64,000 bases of DNA from Microvirga sp. KLBC 81. GTDB taxonomy: Bacteria > Pseudomonadota > Alphaproteobacteria > Rhizobiales > Beijerinckiaceae. This document shows positions 2,671 through 24,147 of the stretch, piece by piece (the stretch's first letter is position 1; each line of letters opens with the position of its first letter). The stretch is from contig NZ_QDAH01000002.1 of NCBI RefSeq assembly GCF_003075415.1, positions 1-64,000 of the forward strand, written 5' to 3'. Made by a program: the position numbers and the translations under genes. The notes under the pieces were generated by a model. The model saw only the letters and a program-made list of their open reading frames with translations. It was not told the DNA's origin and did no database searches.

Positions 2671-2721
2671 TTGGTGGAGCTGAGGGGATTCGAACCCCTG
2701 ACCTCTGCAGTGCGATTGCAG
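2671..2721 (-). repeat. attL: 51-bp copy of tRNA-Ala(CGC) 3' end
   Basis: This 51-bp segment is identical to 24097-24147, the 3' part of the intact tRNA-Ala(CGC) gene from the CCA end to the anticodon arm. Beyond 2721 the match stops, so there is no second full tRNA. The integrase gene begins 147 bases away. The arrangement is that of an attachment-site duplication left by site-specific integration into the 3' end of a tRNA gene. Confidence 0.93.
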
Positions 2722-2812
2722 TCGTCCATCGATTCCCCTGATTTACCCGCGTTGACCCGAGTCTACCAAAGCCTTATAAAATAAGGCTTTCGAGGGCAAA
2801 ACTGATTGACGG

Positions 2813-2867
2813 TGCTTACCCGAGCTGGCTCGAAATGACCGCCTTCTGCTTACCCGGTGCTTACCCG
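2813..2867 (+). other. Candidate integrase arm-type sites, left cluster
   Basis: Three direct copies of TGCTTACCCG lie at 2813-2822, 2847-2856 and 2858-2867. The last ends on the base before the chosen integrase start codon. The same word recurs inside the right island end. The family's integrases have an N-terminal arm-binding domain, so these are inferred to be arm sites, and their overlap with the int start suggests autoregulation. Confidence 0.6.
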
Positions 2868-4211
2868 ATGCCGAAACTGACCAAGCGGGTCATCGATGCG
2901 ATCCATCCGAAAGCCGGAGCGGACGTGTACGCTTGGGACAACGAGTTGCCGGGTTTCGGGCTTCGCGTGAAGCCGAGCGGAGCCAAATCCTTCCTTGTCC
3001 AATACCGCAACAGGAACGGGCGGAGCCGCCGCCTCACGGTGGGCCGCTATGGCGTGCTGACCCCTGACGAGGCCCGCAACGAGGCGCGGACTATTCTGAA
3101 CAGGGTGGCGAAGGGGGAAGACCCGGCAGAAGCCAGGGCGGCGGATCGCACGGCGGCGACCGTCGCCGAGCTTTGCCGGGAGTATCTCGACAGGGCCGAG
3201 CAGGGGCTCATCCTGACGCGCATGGGCAAAGCGAAGAAGCCATCGACACTGTACACTGACCGGGGACGGGTCGAGCGCCATATCATCCCGCTCATTGGAC
3301 ATCGTACGGTCAAGGATCTAACCACAGCGGATCTGCGGGTCTTCCTGCGTGACGTGATTGCCGGGAAGACGGCAACCGACGTGAAGACCAAGGCTCGTGG
3401 ACGCGCCATCGTGAAAGGCGGGAAGGGCACCGCCACGCGCACCATGGCGCTGCTGAGCACGATCCTCACCTATGCGGTCGAGGAGGGCTGCCGGACCGAT
3501 AACCCGGCGCGCGGCATCGTTCTGCCCTCCTACAACAAGCGCAAGATCCATCTTGATGCCAGCCAGTATGCTGCTCTCGGCAGGGCGCTCGCTGCCGCCG
3601 AGTTGAAGGGAGAGCCTTGGCAGGCGGTCGAGGCCGTGCGGCTGCTCGCCCTGACCGGATGCCGCGCGAGCGAAATCACTGGGCTCAAGCGGGGCGAGTG
3701 CGACTTGCGCGGATCGTGCCTCAGGCTCAGCGACACAAAGACCGGCGCAAGCGTGCGTCCGCTCGGATCGCCCGCGCTGGAGGCCCTTCGCGCTATCCTC
3801 GCCCGCAGCAACAGCATGTATGTGTTCCCGGCCTTGCGGACGGTGGATGCAGAGAACCCGAAGAGCGGGCCAAAGCCTTTTCGGGGTCTGCCGAAGGCGT
3901 GGGATCGGATACGGAACGCCAAGACGCCGGACGGAAGGGAGATCGCTGAGCCGTCGATTGCTTCTCTGACGCCGCACGGGCTGCGCCATGCCTTCGCGTC
4001 CGTCGCCGACGACCTCGGTTTCACCGAGGCAACCATCGGCGCAATGCTGGGGCACTCCGGAGGTGGCACCACGCGAGGCTACATTCACAAGCTGGATACT
4101 GCCCTCATTTCGGCGGCGGATCGCGTCTCGCAGCACATCGCGGTCGCAATGGAAGGCAATCCGGCCGAGAGTGCCCAGGTGGTGGACCTGCATGCGAAGG
4201 CGCGAGCCTGA
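2868..4211 (+). CDS. int: P4-type tyrosine recombinase (island integrase)
   Basis: Site-specific integrase that would insert and excise the island at tRNA-Ala. The 447-residue protein has an N-terminal arm-binding domain (DUF4102 type, residues 1-90, with [19 protein letters not shown]), a core-binding domain (about 95-215), and a catalytic domain. Catalytic residues are visible as Arg266 (TGCRASEI), His370 and Arg373 (HGLRH), His396 (LGHSG) and Tyr405 (TRGYIHK), so the enzyme appears intact. A longer reading from 2835 exists, but [12 protein letters not shown] is the usual start of this family and the upstream codons run through the TGCTTACCCG repeats. Its stop overlaps the next start codon (TGATG), so the two genes are probably co-translated. 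Confidence 0.95.
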
Positions 4212-4981
4212 TGCCCGGCATCTCGCCCCTCCACGCCAGATCTCGTCGCAGGATGGCTGCATATCGGTTTGCCAACGCAATGAAAGCGGCCAACGTCGAC
4301 CATATCCTGAAGGCCGTGGGACGAATGCATATCCCGCGAACGATCAATAGGCGGCGCTTACGGGAAGACATTGAATGGGCCGGATCTCTATGGGACACCC
4401 TCAATGAGTTGGACAGCAGGGGGCTCTGGAGTGGACGTGTACATCGTCTGAAAGACATAGAGATGGCTGCTCGTAGACTGAGATCCCTGCTGTCAAACGA
4501 TACAGCGTGGTTGCAGCAAGTCATTGGCCAGCAATTCCCCCTCGGAGAAGGTGCCATGCGGGGGAAGCGGAGAGATCCGGCACCCTCGCTTAGAGGGCTG
4601 GTTGTCGGCCTGGCTCGGCTGGCCCGAATTACTAACCGGGCACGCGGACAGACGAAGCCAGAGGCCCCGCTACGGCAGGACAAAAGTGCGGCGGAGTGGC
4701 TAATCGGCACACACCTGCCGGAAATCTTCGAGCAACATTTTCAACAGCAGGCAAGAATTGCGCGGCCCCGCTCTCACCACGGCGAGAAGGAAATAACCGG
4801 CAAAGCGAATAGCCCTTACATTCGTTTTGCGGAAGCCGTTCTGAATGAACTCGGCATCAAGTCGACCCACGGTGGCCCTTACAGCCGAGAGACAATCCTC
4901 AAGGTGTTCCAGCAGACGCGATCCGGCGCAAAGCCCAGAAGAAAGCCCTCTTCCGAAGAAGGCGCTGCATGCCTCCCCTGA
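4211..4981 (+). CDS. Hypothetical island protein coupled to integrase
   Basis: A 256-residue protein whose ATG shares one base with the integrase stop codon. It is basic, rich in Arg, and predicted mainly helical, with no membrane segment or signal peptide. The C-terminal third contains NSPYIRFAEAVLNELGI and YSRETILKVFQQTRSG, a pattern common in uncharacterised proteins that sit next to integrases in alphaproteobacterial islands. Translational coupling suggests a role in island mobility or its control, but this is inference from position. The same frame stays open for another 81 codons after the stop (see the next small reading frame). Confidence 0.75.
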   Translation: MPGISPLHARSRRRMAAYRFANAMKAANVDHILKAVGRMHIPRTINRRRLREDIEWAGSLWDTLNELDSRGLWSGRVHRLKDIEMAARRLRSLLSNDTAWLQQVIGQQFPLGEGAMRGKRRDPAPSLRGLVVGLARLARITNRARGQTKPEAPLRQDKSAAEWLIGTHLPEIFEQHFQQQARIARPRSHHGEKEITGKANSPYIRFAEAVLNELGIKSTHGGPYSRETILKVFQQTRSGAKPRRKPSSEEGAACLP

Positions 4982-5023
4982 GCCTCAGCTAGAACCGCAG
5001 GCAATAGGTTTTCAGCAGGAACG

Positions 5024-5227
5024 CTGGTCTATAACGGCAAAGCATTCGGCGTAGCCTACGAAGCTATAGCTGATGGCCGTTCAGAATGGACCGTCCAGCT
5101 TATTCAAGTGCCGAACCAGGCCATCGCCACCATCGCCAGACTATCCTGGAGTAGCGAGGAAAGCCTGCGCGAGATGCTGAACGGCGTCGGCTGTGAAATC
5201 CATCCGGCAGGACTGAACGAGCAATAG
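5024..5227 (+). CDS. Small reading frame without a standard start
   Basis: An open frame encoding LVYNGKAFGVAYEAIADG, then EWTVQLIQVPNQAIATIARL and ending HPAGLNEQ looks protein-like. There is no ATG, GTG or TTG at its front. The best candidate is a CTG at 5024 preceded by AGGAA. It is in the same frame as the preceding gene, starting 14 codons after that gene's stop at 4979-4981, so stop-codon readthrough or a recent nonsense mutation is equally possible. Function unknown. Confidence 0.4.
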   Translation: MVYNGKAFGVAYEAIADGRSEWTVQLIQVPNQAIATIARLSWSSEESLREMLNGVGCEIHPAGLNEQ

Positions 5228-23191: not shown

Positions 23192-23399
23192 GAAGGGCCT
23201 CCCTAGTTCTGAGCAGCCTACAACTAGCGAACCGAAGTCATCACTGAATATACACGAAACCCACCTAGGAAAGAAGGCTGCTTAAATGGGAACGGCGCCC
23301 CTTTACGACGTTCGACCGGGAATGCACTCGCAAGAAGGCCGGGCGCCGTGTTGTTGAGTGCTATGAGCGGATGTTGCGGTTCTATGGCAGGCTTGGAGT

Positions 23400-23987
23400 C
23401 TACCGAGAATGAATGAGCGGCTCGTGCTCAATTGTCGGATCGTTTGGGTCCAATAACGCCCGATGCACCCCAATTGTCTTTCGTAATGCCTGCTTTTGTA
23501 AAGCTCGGTCGTATTTGGGAAGATCCGGAAAGAACTCGTCAATCATCCCTGAGGGAAGGTGAATGCCCACCACATCAGGATAGAGGCACATGTACCAAAT
23601 CTGGAATATGGATGCCTCTATTGGGAGCCGTTGCGCCGCGTTGGCATAATCGTACCAAGCAACGAATAGACGGTGGTCATTATCCGCATCGCTGAAGTTG
23701 GCGAGAAGCGGGCTGTCGTCTCGCTCTGTCTCTTGGTCGGGTCGGAGCGCATGCTTGAACGCGTTCCAGAACTCATGCTGGATGCGGCGCAGGTCTGATG
23801 GCTTGTATCCAGGAAAAACCGGCAGAATGTAGTGGTTGAGCGGCCTTTTGCCAGCTTTGGTGGCCAAGTGTTCTAACAACTCACAGGCAGCGCTTGCGAG
23901 TGAGTGGACCGAAACAGGGTCCAAATCGTCCAGGTACAAGGCTAAGGCCGTACCCAACTGGCGGCGAGCAACTTCAAGTTTATCCAT
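23400..23987 (-). CDS. Hypothetical helical protein at the right island end
   Basis: A 195-residue protein starting MDKLEVARRQLGTALALYLD, with SVHSLASAACELLEHLATKAG and FWNAFKHALRPDQ. Similar uncharacterised proteins have this A-x-ELL ... FKHA layout, which I place near HEPN-like all-helical folds, but only tentatively. Base composition is lower in GC than the flanking core, like its neighbours. It reads away from the tRNA and is the last island gene. Confidence 0.7.
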   Translation of the reverse strand: MDKLEVARRQLGTALALYLDDLDPVSVHSLASAACELLEHLATKAGKRPLNHYILPVFPGYKPSDLRRIQHEFWNAFKHALRPDQETERDDSPLLANFSDADNDHRLFVAWYDYANAAQRLPIEASIFQIWYMCLYPDVVGIHLPSGMIDEFFPDLPKYDRALQKQALRKTIGVHRALLDPNDPTIEHEPLIHSR

Positions 23988-24030
23988 CGAGCCTCTTTGC
24001 TCTCTACCGACTCGGTGAATTTGCCCCGCT

Positions 24031-24051
24031 TGCTTACCTATTGCTTACCCG
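24031..24051 (+). other. Candidate integrase arm-type sites, right cluster
   Basis: TGCTTACC at 24031-24038 and TGCTTACCCG at 24042-24051 lie about 50 bases inside the right attachment site. They are in the same orientation as the three copies at the left end. Confidence 0.55.
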
Positions 24052-24096
24052 TATCGAGCTGGATTTGGGCCCCAATGGGCTAAGTCATTGAAGATA

Positions 24097-24147
24097 TTGG
24101 TGGAGCTGAGGGGATTCGAACCCCTGACCTCTGCAGTGCGATTGCAG
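24097..24147 (-). repeat. attR: 51-bp repeat within tRNA-Ala
   Basis: Identical over 51 bases to 2671-2721. It covers the 3' half of the intact tRNA gene, so integration kept the tRNA functional at this end. Confidence 0.93.

Follow-up and report, generated by a model that had tools for sequence, protein, structure and literature searches.

A tRNA-Ala-integrated island with a terminase gene pair in Microvirga sp. KLBC 81, a putative and partly decayed satellite-like element

Insertion site and gene modules of the island

We analysed a 64,000-nucleotide stretch of Microvirga sp. KLBC 81 (contig NZ_QDAH01000002.1, positions 1 to 64,000 of the forward strand; assembly GCF_003075415.1), henceforth the window. 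It opens contig C2 of the draft genome (G000), which comprises 6.86 Mb and 357 contigs; genomes, contigs and loci used for comparison carry G, C and L numbers. Positions 2671-24147 of the window hold an island of 21.4 kb with a terminase gene pair. Its ends, 2671-2721 and 24097-24147, are identical 51-bp direct repeats, and the one on the right is the 3′ end of a tRNA-Ala(CGC) gene (24098-24173, - strand), into which the island was integrated by a tyrosine integrase. A first-pass annotation, made from the sequence alone, had placed a possible satellite of the phage-inducible chromosomal island (PICI) or P4-like type here. Its boundaries are right, because the repeat is exact and coincides with the tRNA gene and because contiguous empty sites exist in other Microvirga: the joined flanks aligned in one piece across the junction in three of seven compared loci (L063, L064 and L065). 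The tRNA-Ala gene and its neighbour genes are present in all 48 genomes of the genus. The site is frequently occupied, because second copies of the tRNA or of its 3′ end lie ~7-31 kb away in five genomes (G007, G011, G035, G046 and G047). An RNA family scan found the tRNA alone. The main features of the island are as follows.

2671..2721, no strand: left attachment site (attL), a 51-bp copy of the tRNA-Ala 3′ end, exact match to 24097-24147
2835..4211, + strand: tyrosine integrase (P4/phage type, arm-binding domain 3); PF13356, PF00589, phrog_1; 80% to the G024 integrase at the same site
4211..4981, + strand: gene sharing 1 nt with the integrase stop; 53% to its positional counterpart in G024
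5348..5683, + strand: AlpA/excisionase-like small helix-turn-helix (HTH) protein; 92-95% to G024, 45% to L034
5680..6255, + strand: orf5680, early-module gene; 54-73% homologues in G000:C20 and G024
6257..7783, + strand: DUF3987 helicase-type replication protein; PF13148 (E 1e-91), phrog_2373; 87% to L035, 75% to L034
7780..8283, + strand: small gene after DUF3987; 50% to L035, 36% to L034, 72% to G024
17851..18009, - strand: disrupted 3′ fragment of a small terminase subunit (TerS) gene, frames broken; 58% over 26 aa to the window TerS, 54% over 52 aa to the G216 TerS
18358..19785, - strand: large terminase subunit (TerL, Terminase_3/PBSX type), 475 aa, GTG start; PF04466 (E 3e-30), phrog_3717, TIGR01547 above its cut-off
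19782..20207, - strand: TerS (Sf6 type), overlapping TerL by 4 nt; PF20901 (E 2e-32), phrog_1482; 54% to a G000:C20 TerS
20225..20374, - strand: 49-aa gene between XRE and TerS, within a 188-bp stretch (20201-20384) 93% identical to G000:C20
20371..20601, - strand: XRE-type HTH regulator; PF01381 (E 1.5e-4; 22.1 bits, below the cut-off of 23); 72% to the XRE beside the G024 TerS
24097..24147, no strand: right attachment site (attR), within tRNA-Ala(CGC) (24098-24173, - strand)

The left module (2.8-8.3 kb) runs on the + strand throughout, in the order integrase, overlapping gene, small HTH gene, orf5680, DUF3987 and small gene. The integrase and the DUF3987 protein named by the first-pass annotation are both well supported, DUF3987 being the strongest match in the island, and the DUF3987 gene has 87% matches in G017:C130 and in Microvirga aerophila (NZ_QOIO01000005.1). 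The AlpA-like assignment is weaker than had been stated. This protein has no Pfam match at E ≤ 0.1 and is placed through its relatives in G024 and L034 only; the L034 relative itself reaches HTH_17 at only E 0.06. Elsewhere in the window, positions 44371-45093 show weak similarity (27%) to the island integrase and possibly encode a second recombinase.

In the right module (17.8-20.6 kb) XRE, the 49-aa gene, TerS and TerL all lie on the - strand, with 4-nt overlaps between XRE and the 49-aa gene and between TerS and TerL. The terminase pair is as first described. Both reading frames are open over their full length, and a motif alignment shows that TerL keeps the acidic ATPase (B) motif and the nuclease residues. 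An HTH is present in the XRE protein, with the weak match listed above. The 49-aa gene has no Pfam match. The disrupted TerS fragment lies downstream of TerL. A stretch upstream of XRE (20571-20911) recurs at 88-90% in G000:C20 and in G018:C130, in the latter away from XRE, and is a dispersed element.

Pfam and PHROG scans and a comparison with 295 proteins from 13 phage, prophage or satellite-like loci revealed no portal, capsid, tail or lysis homologues in the island, as the first-pass annotation had noted. The Pfam scans covered 20 island proteins, including some of the small open reading frames (ORFs). In the comparison only the integrase, HTH, orf5680, DUF3987, TerS and TerL proteins of the island found a match (E ≤ 1e-3).

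Relatives of the early module and of the terminase

At the same tRNA site, G024 carries counterparts of the integrase, the gene at 4211, the HTH protein, orf5680 (59%) and the gene at 7780 at the levels listed above, together with a different DUF3987 protein. On the tRNA side, which is on another contig, G024 encodes an XRE protein (72%) and a TerS (phrog_309, E 1e-45), with no 49-aa gene seen. We take the two ends as probably belonging to one element because they share the attachment sequence. A second island-like element lies in the KLBC 81 genome itself (G000:C20, 4490-17813; L100). It contains integrase, HTH, orf5680 (54%), RepA-like, XRE, 49-aa and TerS genes and a gene for a 595-aa injection-type protein, and has no TerL, portal or capsid matches. 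There, the 49-aa gene and the start of TerS are 93% identical to the window. Next comes a different TerS, interrupted by an in-frame stop, and after it the TerS that is 54% identical to that of the window. This arrangement suggests exchange of TerS genes at this location, of which the TerS-TerL pair of the window may be one instance.

A search of genome contigs for DUF3987 matched 18 stretches, two of which encode a relative of the island protein. One of them, L035 (87%), lies on a contig too short to judge its context. The other, L034 (75%), lies in a Xanthobacteraceae metagenome-assembled genome (JAMLIK010000005.1), in a 17-kb element (1677-19069) between 46-bp tRNA-Gly-end repeats (at 1677 and 19024). 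Its integrase (44%), HTH (45%) and DUF3987 genes are followed by genes for a portal, protease, capsid, head-tail adaptor, HNH protein, TerS and TerL. None of the 14 L034 proteins scanned with PHROGs, a set that left some small ORFs outside, matches a tail family. We regard L034 as a candidate for an element like the capsid-forming PICIs (cfPICIs) in an alphaproteobacterium. The left module of the window island has its closest relatives in these two TerS-bearing Microvirga islands and in L034, none of them a full prophage.

Homologues of orf5680 occur in 8 of 397 genomes of the order (own genome included), at nine places. We inspected 11 loci, including two places in G024, and found a head or packaging gene nearby in eight: the window, G000:C20, G024 (C177/C201), G109, G135, G266, G362 and G399. 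The element at the G266:C27 locus (L171, 4990-13532) spans 8.5 kb and is bounded by 49-bp tRNA-Gln repeats. It holds integrase, orf5680, primase, head protease and capsid genes, and no terminase or portal was seen in it.

TerL has a wider distribution, with matches in 12 of 101 related genomes at E ≤ 1e-3 and in 27 of 397 genomes of the order, own included, at E ≤ 1e-20. Its nearest relatives outside the own genome are three copies in G305 (61, 60 and 59%). The first of these (G305:C7) belongs by inspection to an apparent full prophage with portal and capsid. The other two (C4 and C20, 59-60%) are orphan TerS-TerL pairs with no portal match, beside genes that look by inspection like XRE and HipA. 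The orphan pairs share a 2.0-kb block at 88% identity with unrelated flanks (L157 2149-4164 and L158 2208-4223), and their TerL genes differ by 0.046 nonsynonymous (dN) and 0.298 synonymous (dS) substitutions per site. A short repeat at the start of this block recurs in the prophage of the same genome. A portal gene lies immediately after TerL or a few genes further on in G016, G012, G036, G083, G025 and G216 (by inspection) and in phage phiGT1 (annotated). Among phage records, 1481 match TerL, all below 60% identity (phiGT1, 37%).

Genes outside the window were called by a script with a codon model trained on the window, which fails on low-GC stretches (no gene was called in G272), so that the absence of a portal near TerL in G272, G169 and G060 is not established. 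The portals of G016, G012, G036, G083, G025, G305:C7 and G216, as well as HipA, the gene transfer agent (GTA) and the response regulators mentioned below, were named by inspection or mutual similarity and not by hidden Markov models (HMMs).

Cargo, decay and possible origins

The middle of the island (8.4-17.5 kb, ~9 kb) is cargo that makes up ~40% of its length, interspersed with a phage-related fragment.

8857..9873, + strand: hemerythrin/phasin protein; PF01814, PF09361; many homologues in the genus
10749-11171 (-), 11211-11624 (-) and 11795-12292 (+): three receiver-like response regulators, by inspection and mutual similarity, no HMM; 77% DNA match in G016
12884..13540, + strand: resembles the C-terminal portion of an injection-type (internal virion) phage protein; phrog_21712 (E 3e-6), phrog_5880 (E 5e-6); 31% to the 595-aa G000:C20 protein
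14215-15153, - strand: SBP_bac_3 protein; PF00497
15150-16700, - strand: M20 peptidase; PF01546
16787-17455, + strand: GntR/FCD regulator; PF07729

Among the matches listed, 12 other Microvirga carry nearly all of the SBP_bac_3, M20 peptidase and GntR/FCD set, at 76-87% DNA identity, and two more carry part of it, at other genomic places where the contig is known. Defence genes were not evident, as none of ten island proteins matches PADLOC at E ≤ 0.01. The small ORF region at 12354-12766 (ORF 12457-12786) has 80-82% DNA identity to G016 and G036.

The protein at 12884-13540 is probably injection-type. It and the 595-aa protein were so named because the latter weakly matches the annotated phiGT1 injection protein (E 1e-3; E 1e-11 in a small comparison); the PHROGs label of phrog_21712 is 'major head protein'. 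A comparison of the 12884-13540 protein with 50,697 phage records gave nothing at E ≤ 0.1, and the 595-aa protein matched none of 17 stretches of viral contigs. Injection-type debris is common in the genus, since C-terminal scraps of the same protein also occur in G019 (two places) and G026. The first-pass description was confirmed in part: the boundaries and the gene set held, with a weaker basis for the AlpA-like and XRE genes, while the cargo, the injection-type fragment and the disrupted TerS fragment had been overlooked.

We interpret the island as a partly decayed, cargo-loaded, satellite-like and putatively mobile element integrated in a tRNA gene, a reading that in our judgement may about equally well prove right or wrong. 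A satellite-like origin is favoured by the core gene order, by the XRE-TerS genes that stand opposite this core in G000:C20 and G024, and by the putatively head-forming relative L034. If so, the AlpA-like protein would act with the integrase in excision, and DUF3987 would drive replication, by itself or together with enzymes of the host or of a helper. TerS, with its own or the helper's TerL, would have directed island DNA into the head of a P22/phiGT1-type helper phage, which would have supplied portal, capsid, tail and lysis proteins. The TerS-TerL pair probably arrived by exchange at an older TerS, leaving the 3′ end of the latter at 17851-18009, and the cargo may have come in by recombination.

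Several observations weigh against a working satellite. The ~9 kb of cargo and the injection-type and second-TerS fragments have been described above. The ATP-binding loop of the island TerL reads GGRAGMKS, whereas the usual loop is kept in all 24 other distinct TerLs (those caught by one pattern, 31 rows of which seven are duplicate loci). The DUF3987 protein is 508 aa long, compared with 809 and 765 aa in its nearest relatives. It lacks the N-terminal part of the L034 and L035 proteins, which in the L034 version includes a RepB_primase part. The sister islands are also decayed, with an in-frame stop in one TerS and RepA split in two frames in G000:C20. TerL is not a conserved part of the element, because G024 has no TerL match (it is not among the 12 of 101 genomes above). 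No packaging gene was found near orf5680 in 3 of the 11 loci (G024:C133, G337 and G074, the last a 4-kb contig). Nor is orf5680 confined to tail-less elements, because it also lies in tailed or full-phage contexts, with a baseplate hub in G109, a tape measure in G135 and a phage-type TerL and portal in G399. A P22-type portal (PF16510) is absent from the KLBC 81 genome, in a search whose control was positive in 1 of 14, and that genome gave no HK97 capsid or portal match outside the GTA-like cluster. Excision, induction, packaging signal and helper are all putative. Present autonomy in packaging is doubtful because of the debris and the altered TerL loop.

We considered a P22-type helper prophage in the own genome and rejected it, as PF16510 was found in 0 of 1 genome and the sole PF05065 and PF04860 matches fall in the GTA-like cluster. 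This cluster, at ~50-71 kb of G000:C4 (L166 and L167), resembles an alphaproteobacterial gene transfer agent by inspection.

A possible alternative, which we consider rather less than probable, is that this is an ordinary genomic island at a tRNA gene, mobilised by its own integrase, in which the terminase genes are idle prophage leftovers. The host-type cargo in the middle, the injection-type and TerS fragments, the odd TerL loop and the injection-type scraps in G019 and G026 all speak for it. Consistent with this, only integrases match the 295-protein set (E ≤ 1e-6) among the other occupants of the tRNA-Ala site (G007, G011, G035, G046 and G047, one 501-bp G047 piece excepted). It accounts for cargo and fragments equally well, but not for the repeated pairing of XRE-TerS with the core: XRE, the 49-aa gene and TerS recur beside a similar early module in G000:C20, as do XRE and TerS in G024. 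Against it also stand the full-length open frames of TerS and TerL and the packaging or head genes at 8 of 11 orf5680 loci.

Deletion of one complete prophage formerly at this site is improbable. The nearest TerL does lie in the apparent full prophage of G305:C7, and a G016 prophage has TerL and an injection-type protein ~12 kb apart. However, the integrase end has its closest relatives in elements other than such prophages, the island carries no trace of any further gene of theirs, and TerL and the injection-type fragment are on opposite strands with cargo between them. We rejected a simple deletion on the last two of these grounds. The first-pass annotation had expected full prophages as nearest relatives if the island were a deletion product. 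This holds for the nearest TerL, but neither for the two orphan TerLs nor for the relatives of the left module. With the nearest TerLs divided between one apparent full prophage and two orphan pairs, the satellite and decay readings are both left unrefuted.

It is very unlikely that the TerS-TerL pair is a stand-alone unit with a function outside virions like the two G305 orphan pairs, which lack a portal and share their block (dN and dS as above) between different flanks beside XRE/HipA-like genes, since their TerLs share no more than 59-60% identity with that of the window, a block so young may simply not have decayed yet, the genes are of phage origin and the function is putative.

The satellite-like reading can be extended, in a proposal that we consider doubtful, to a poorly known lineage of satellites that integrate into tRNA genes in the order to which Microvirga belongs. 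Its members would share one early module (integrase, AlpA-like HTH, orf5680 and helicase/primase) and freely swap their late end: TerS only (G000:C20 and G024), TerS and TerL (the window), protease and capsid (G266), or a head-packaging set with no recognised tail gene (L034). The window would then be a packaging-only form that gained a whole foreign terminase by cassette exchange at its TerS. If this lineage holds, it would provide a traceable series of satellite-like forms in alphaproteobacteria, with late modules gained and lost.

At the contig end, window positions 1-78 also occur at the termini of several other contigs in the own genome and are probably an insertion-sequence end.

Comparison with known satellites and phages

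We compared the island with described satellite families. P4-like satellites carry psu, sid, delta and related genes. No P4-specific family occurs among the 20 island proteins scanned with Pfam, and we dropped the P4-like label that had been offered for the island. Our literature search, to which the main satellite survey was external, found nothing on satellites in Hyphomicrobiales or on orphan terminases, and we make no claim that such satellites are unpublished; one survey reportedly covers thousands of satellites.

The core of Gram-negative PICIs, as outlined in the relevant part of PMC6092414, consists of an integrase at the attachment end, an AlpA-type gene, a replication gene and, in some members, TerS, with no structural or lytic genes. 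The island resembles such PICIs (e.g. EcCICFT073) in its integrase beside a specific attachment site, AlpA-like gene, replication gene and TerS, and in that no structural or lytic genes were found. The gene order of the left module also agrees with that of Gram-negative PICI cores. These likenesses are qualified: the AlpA/MerR-type protein lacks a Pfam match and is homologous to HTH proteins of related islands, DUF3987 is present minus the N-terminal part seen in L034 and L035, and one injection-type fragment is present. The island differs in its TerL, its size (21.4 kb versus ~15 kb), its host-type cargo and its phage fragments, and its size and cargo, being beyond the usual for PICIs, also weigh against the satellite reading.

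The phage-inducible chromosomal minimalist islands (PICMIs) of Vibrionaceae have, in the account excerpted from PMC10803314, the order integrase, overlapping gene, alpA, small gene and DUF3987 primase, and the left module of the island has the same order. PF00589 and PF13148 were found, and the AlpA models had no match. PICMIs differ in inserting at fis, whereas the island lies in tRNA-Ala(CGC); they are minimal, with a model that in that account lacks a terminase gene, and the host of the island is an alphaproteobacterium. That account places PICIs in Firmicutes and Gammaproteobacteria (PMC10803314), and cfPICIs are described, in the part of PMC10690885 concerned, as widely distributed across Bacteria. 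The island shares with cfPICIs its own TerS and TerL, and its relative L034 has portal, protease, capsid, adaptor, HNH, TerS and TerL; the island itself lacks capsid, portal, protease, connector and HNH. Membership of the island in the cfPICIs was rejected because it has no capsid set. The terminase families also differ, being Terminase_3/Sf6 in the island and TerL_ATPase/Terminase_4 in L034. With P22/phiGT1-type phages the island shares a Terminase_3 TerL (37% to phiGT1) and relatives of its injection-type protein, but those records have portal, scaffold, capsid and tail genes beside TerL. The portal, capsid, tail and lysis genes of a complete prophage are likewise missing from the island.

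The island departs from PICIs and PICMIs in the size and site that we tested, and is not classifiable as PICI, PICMI, cfPICI or P4-like. Measured against the published definitions, as far as the relevant parts of PMC6092414, PMC10803314, PMC10690885 and PMC11389934 set them out, its mode of action would come closest to that of a TerS-type PICI whose core is PICMI-like.

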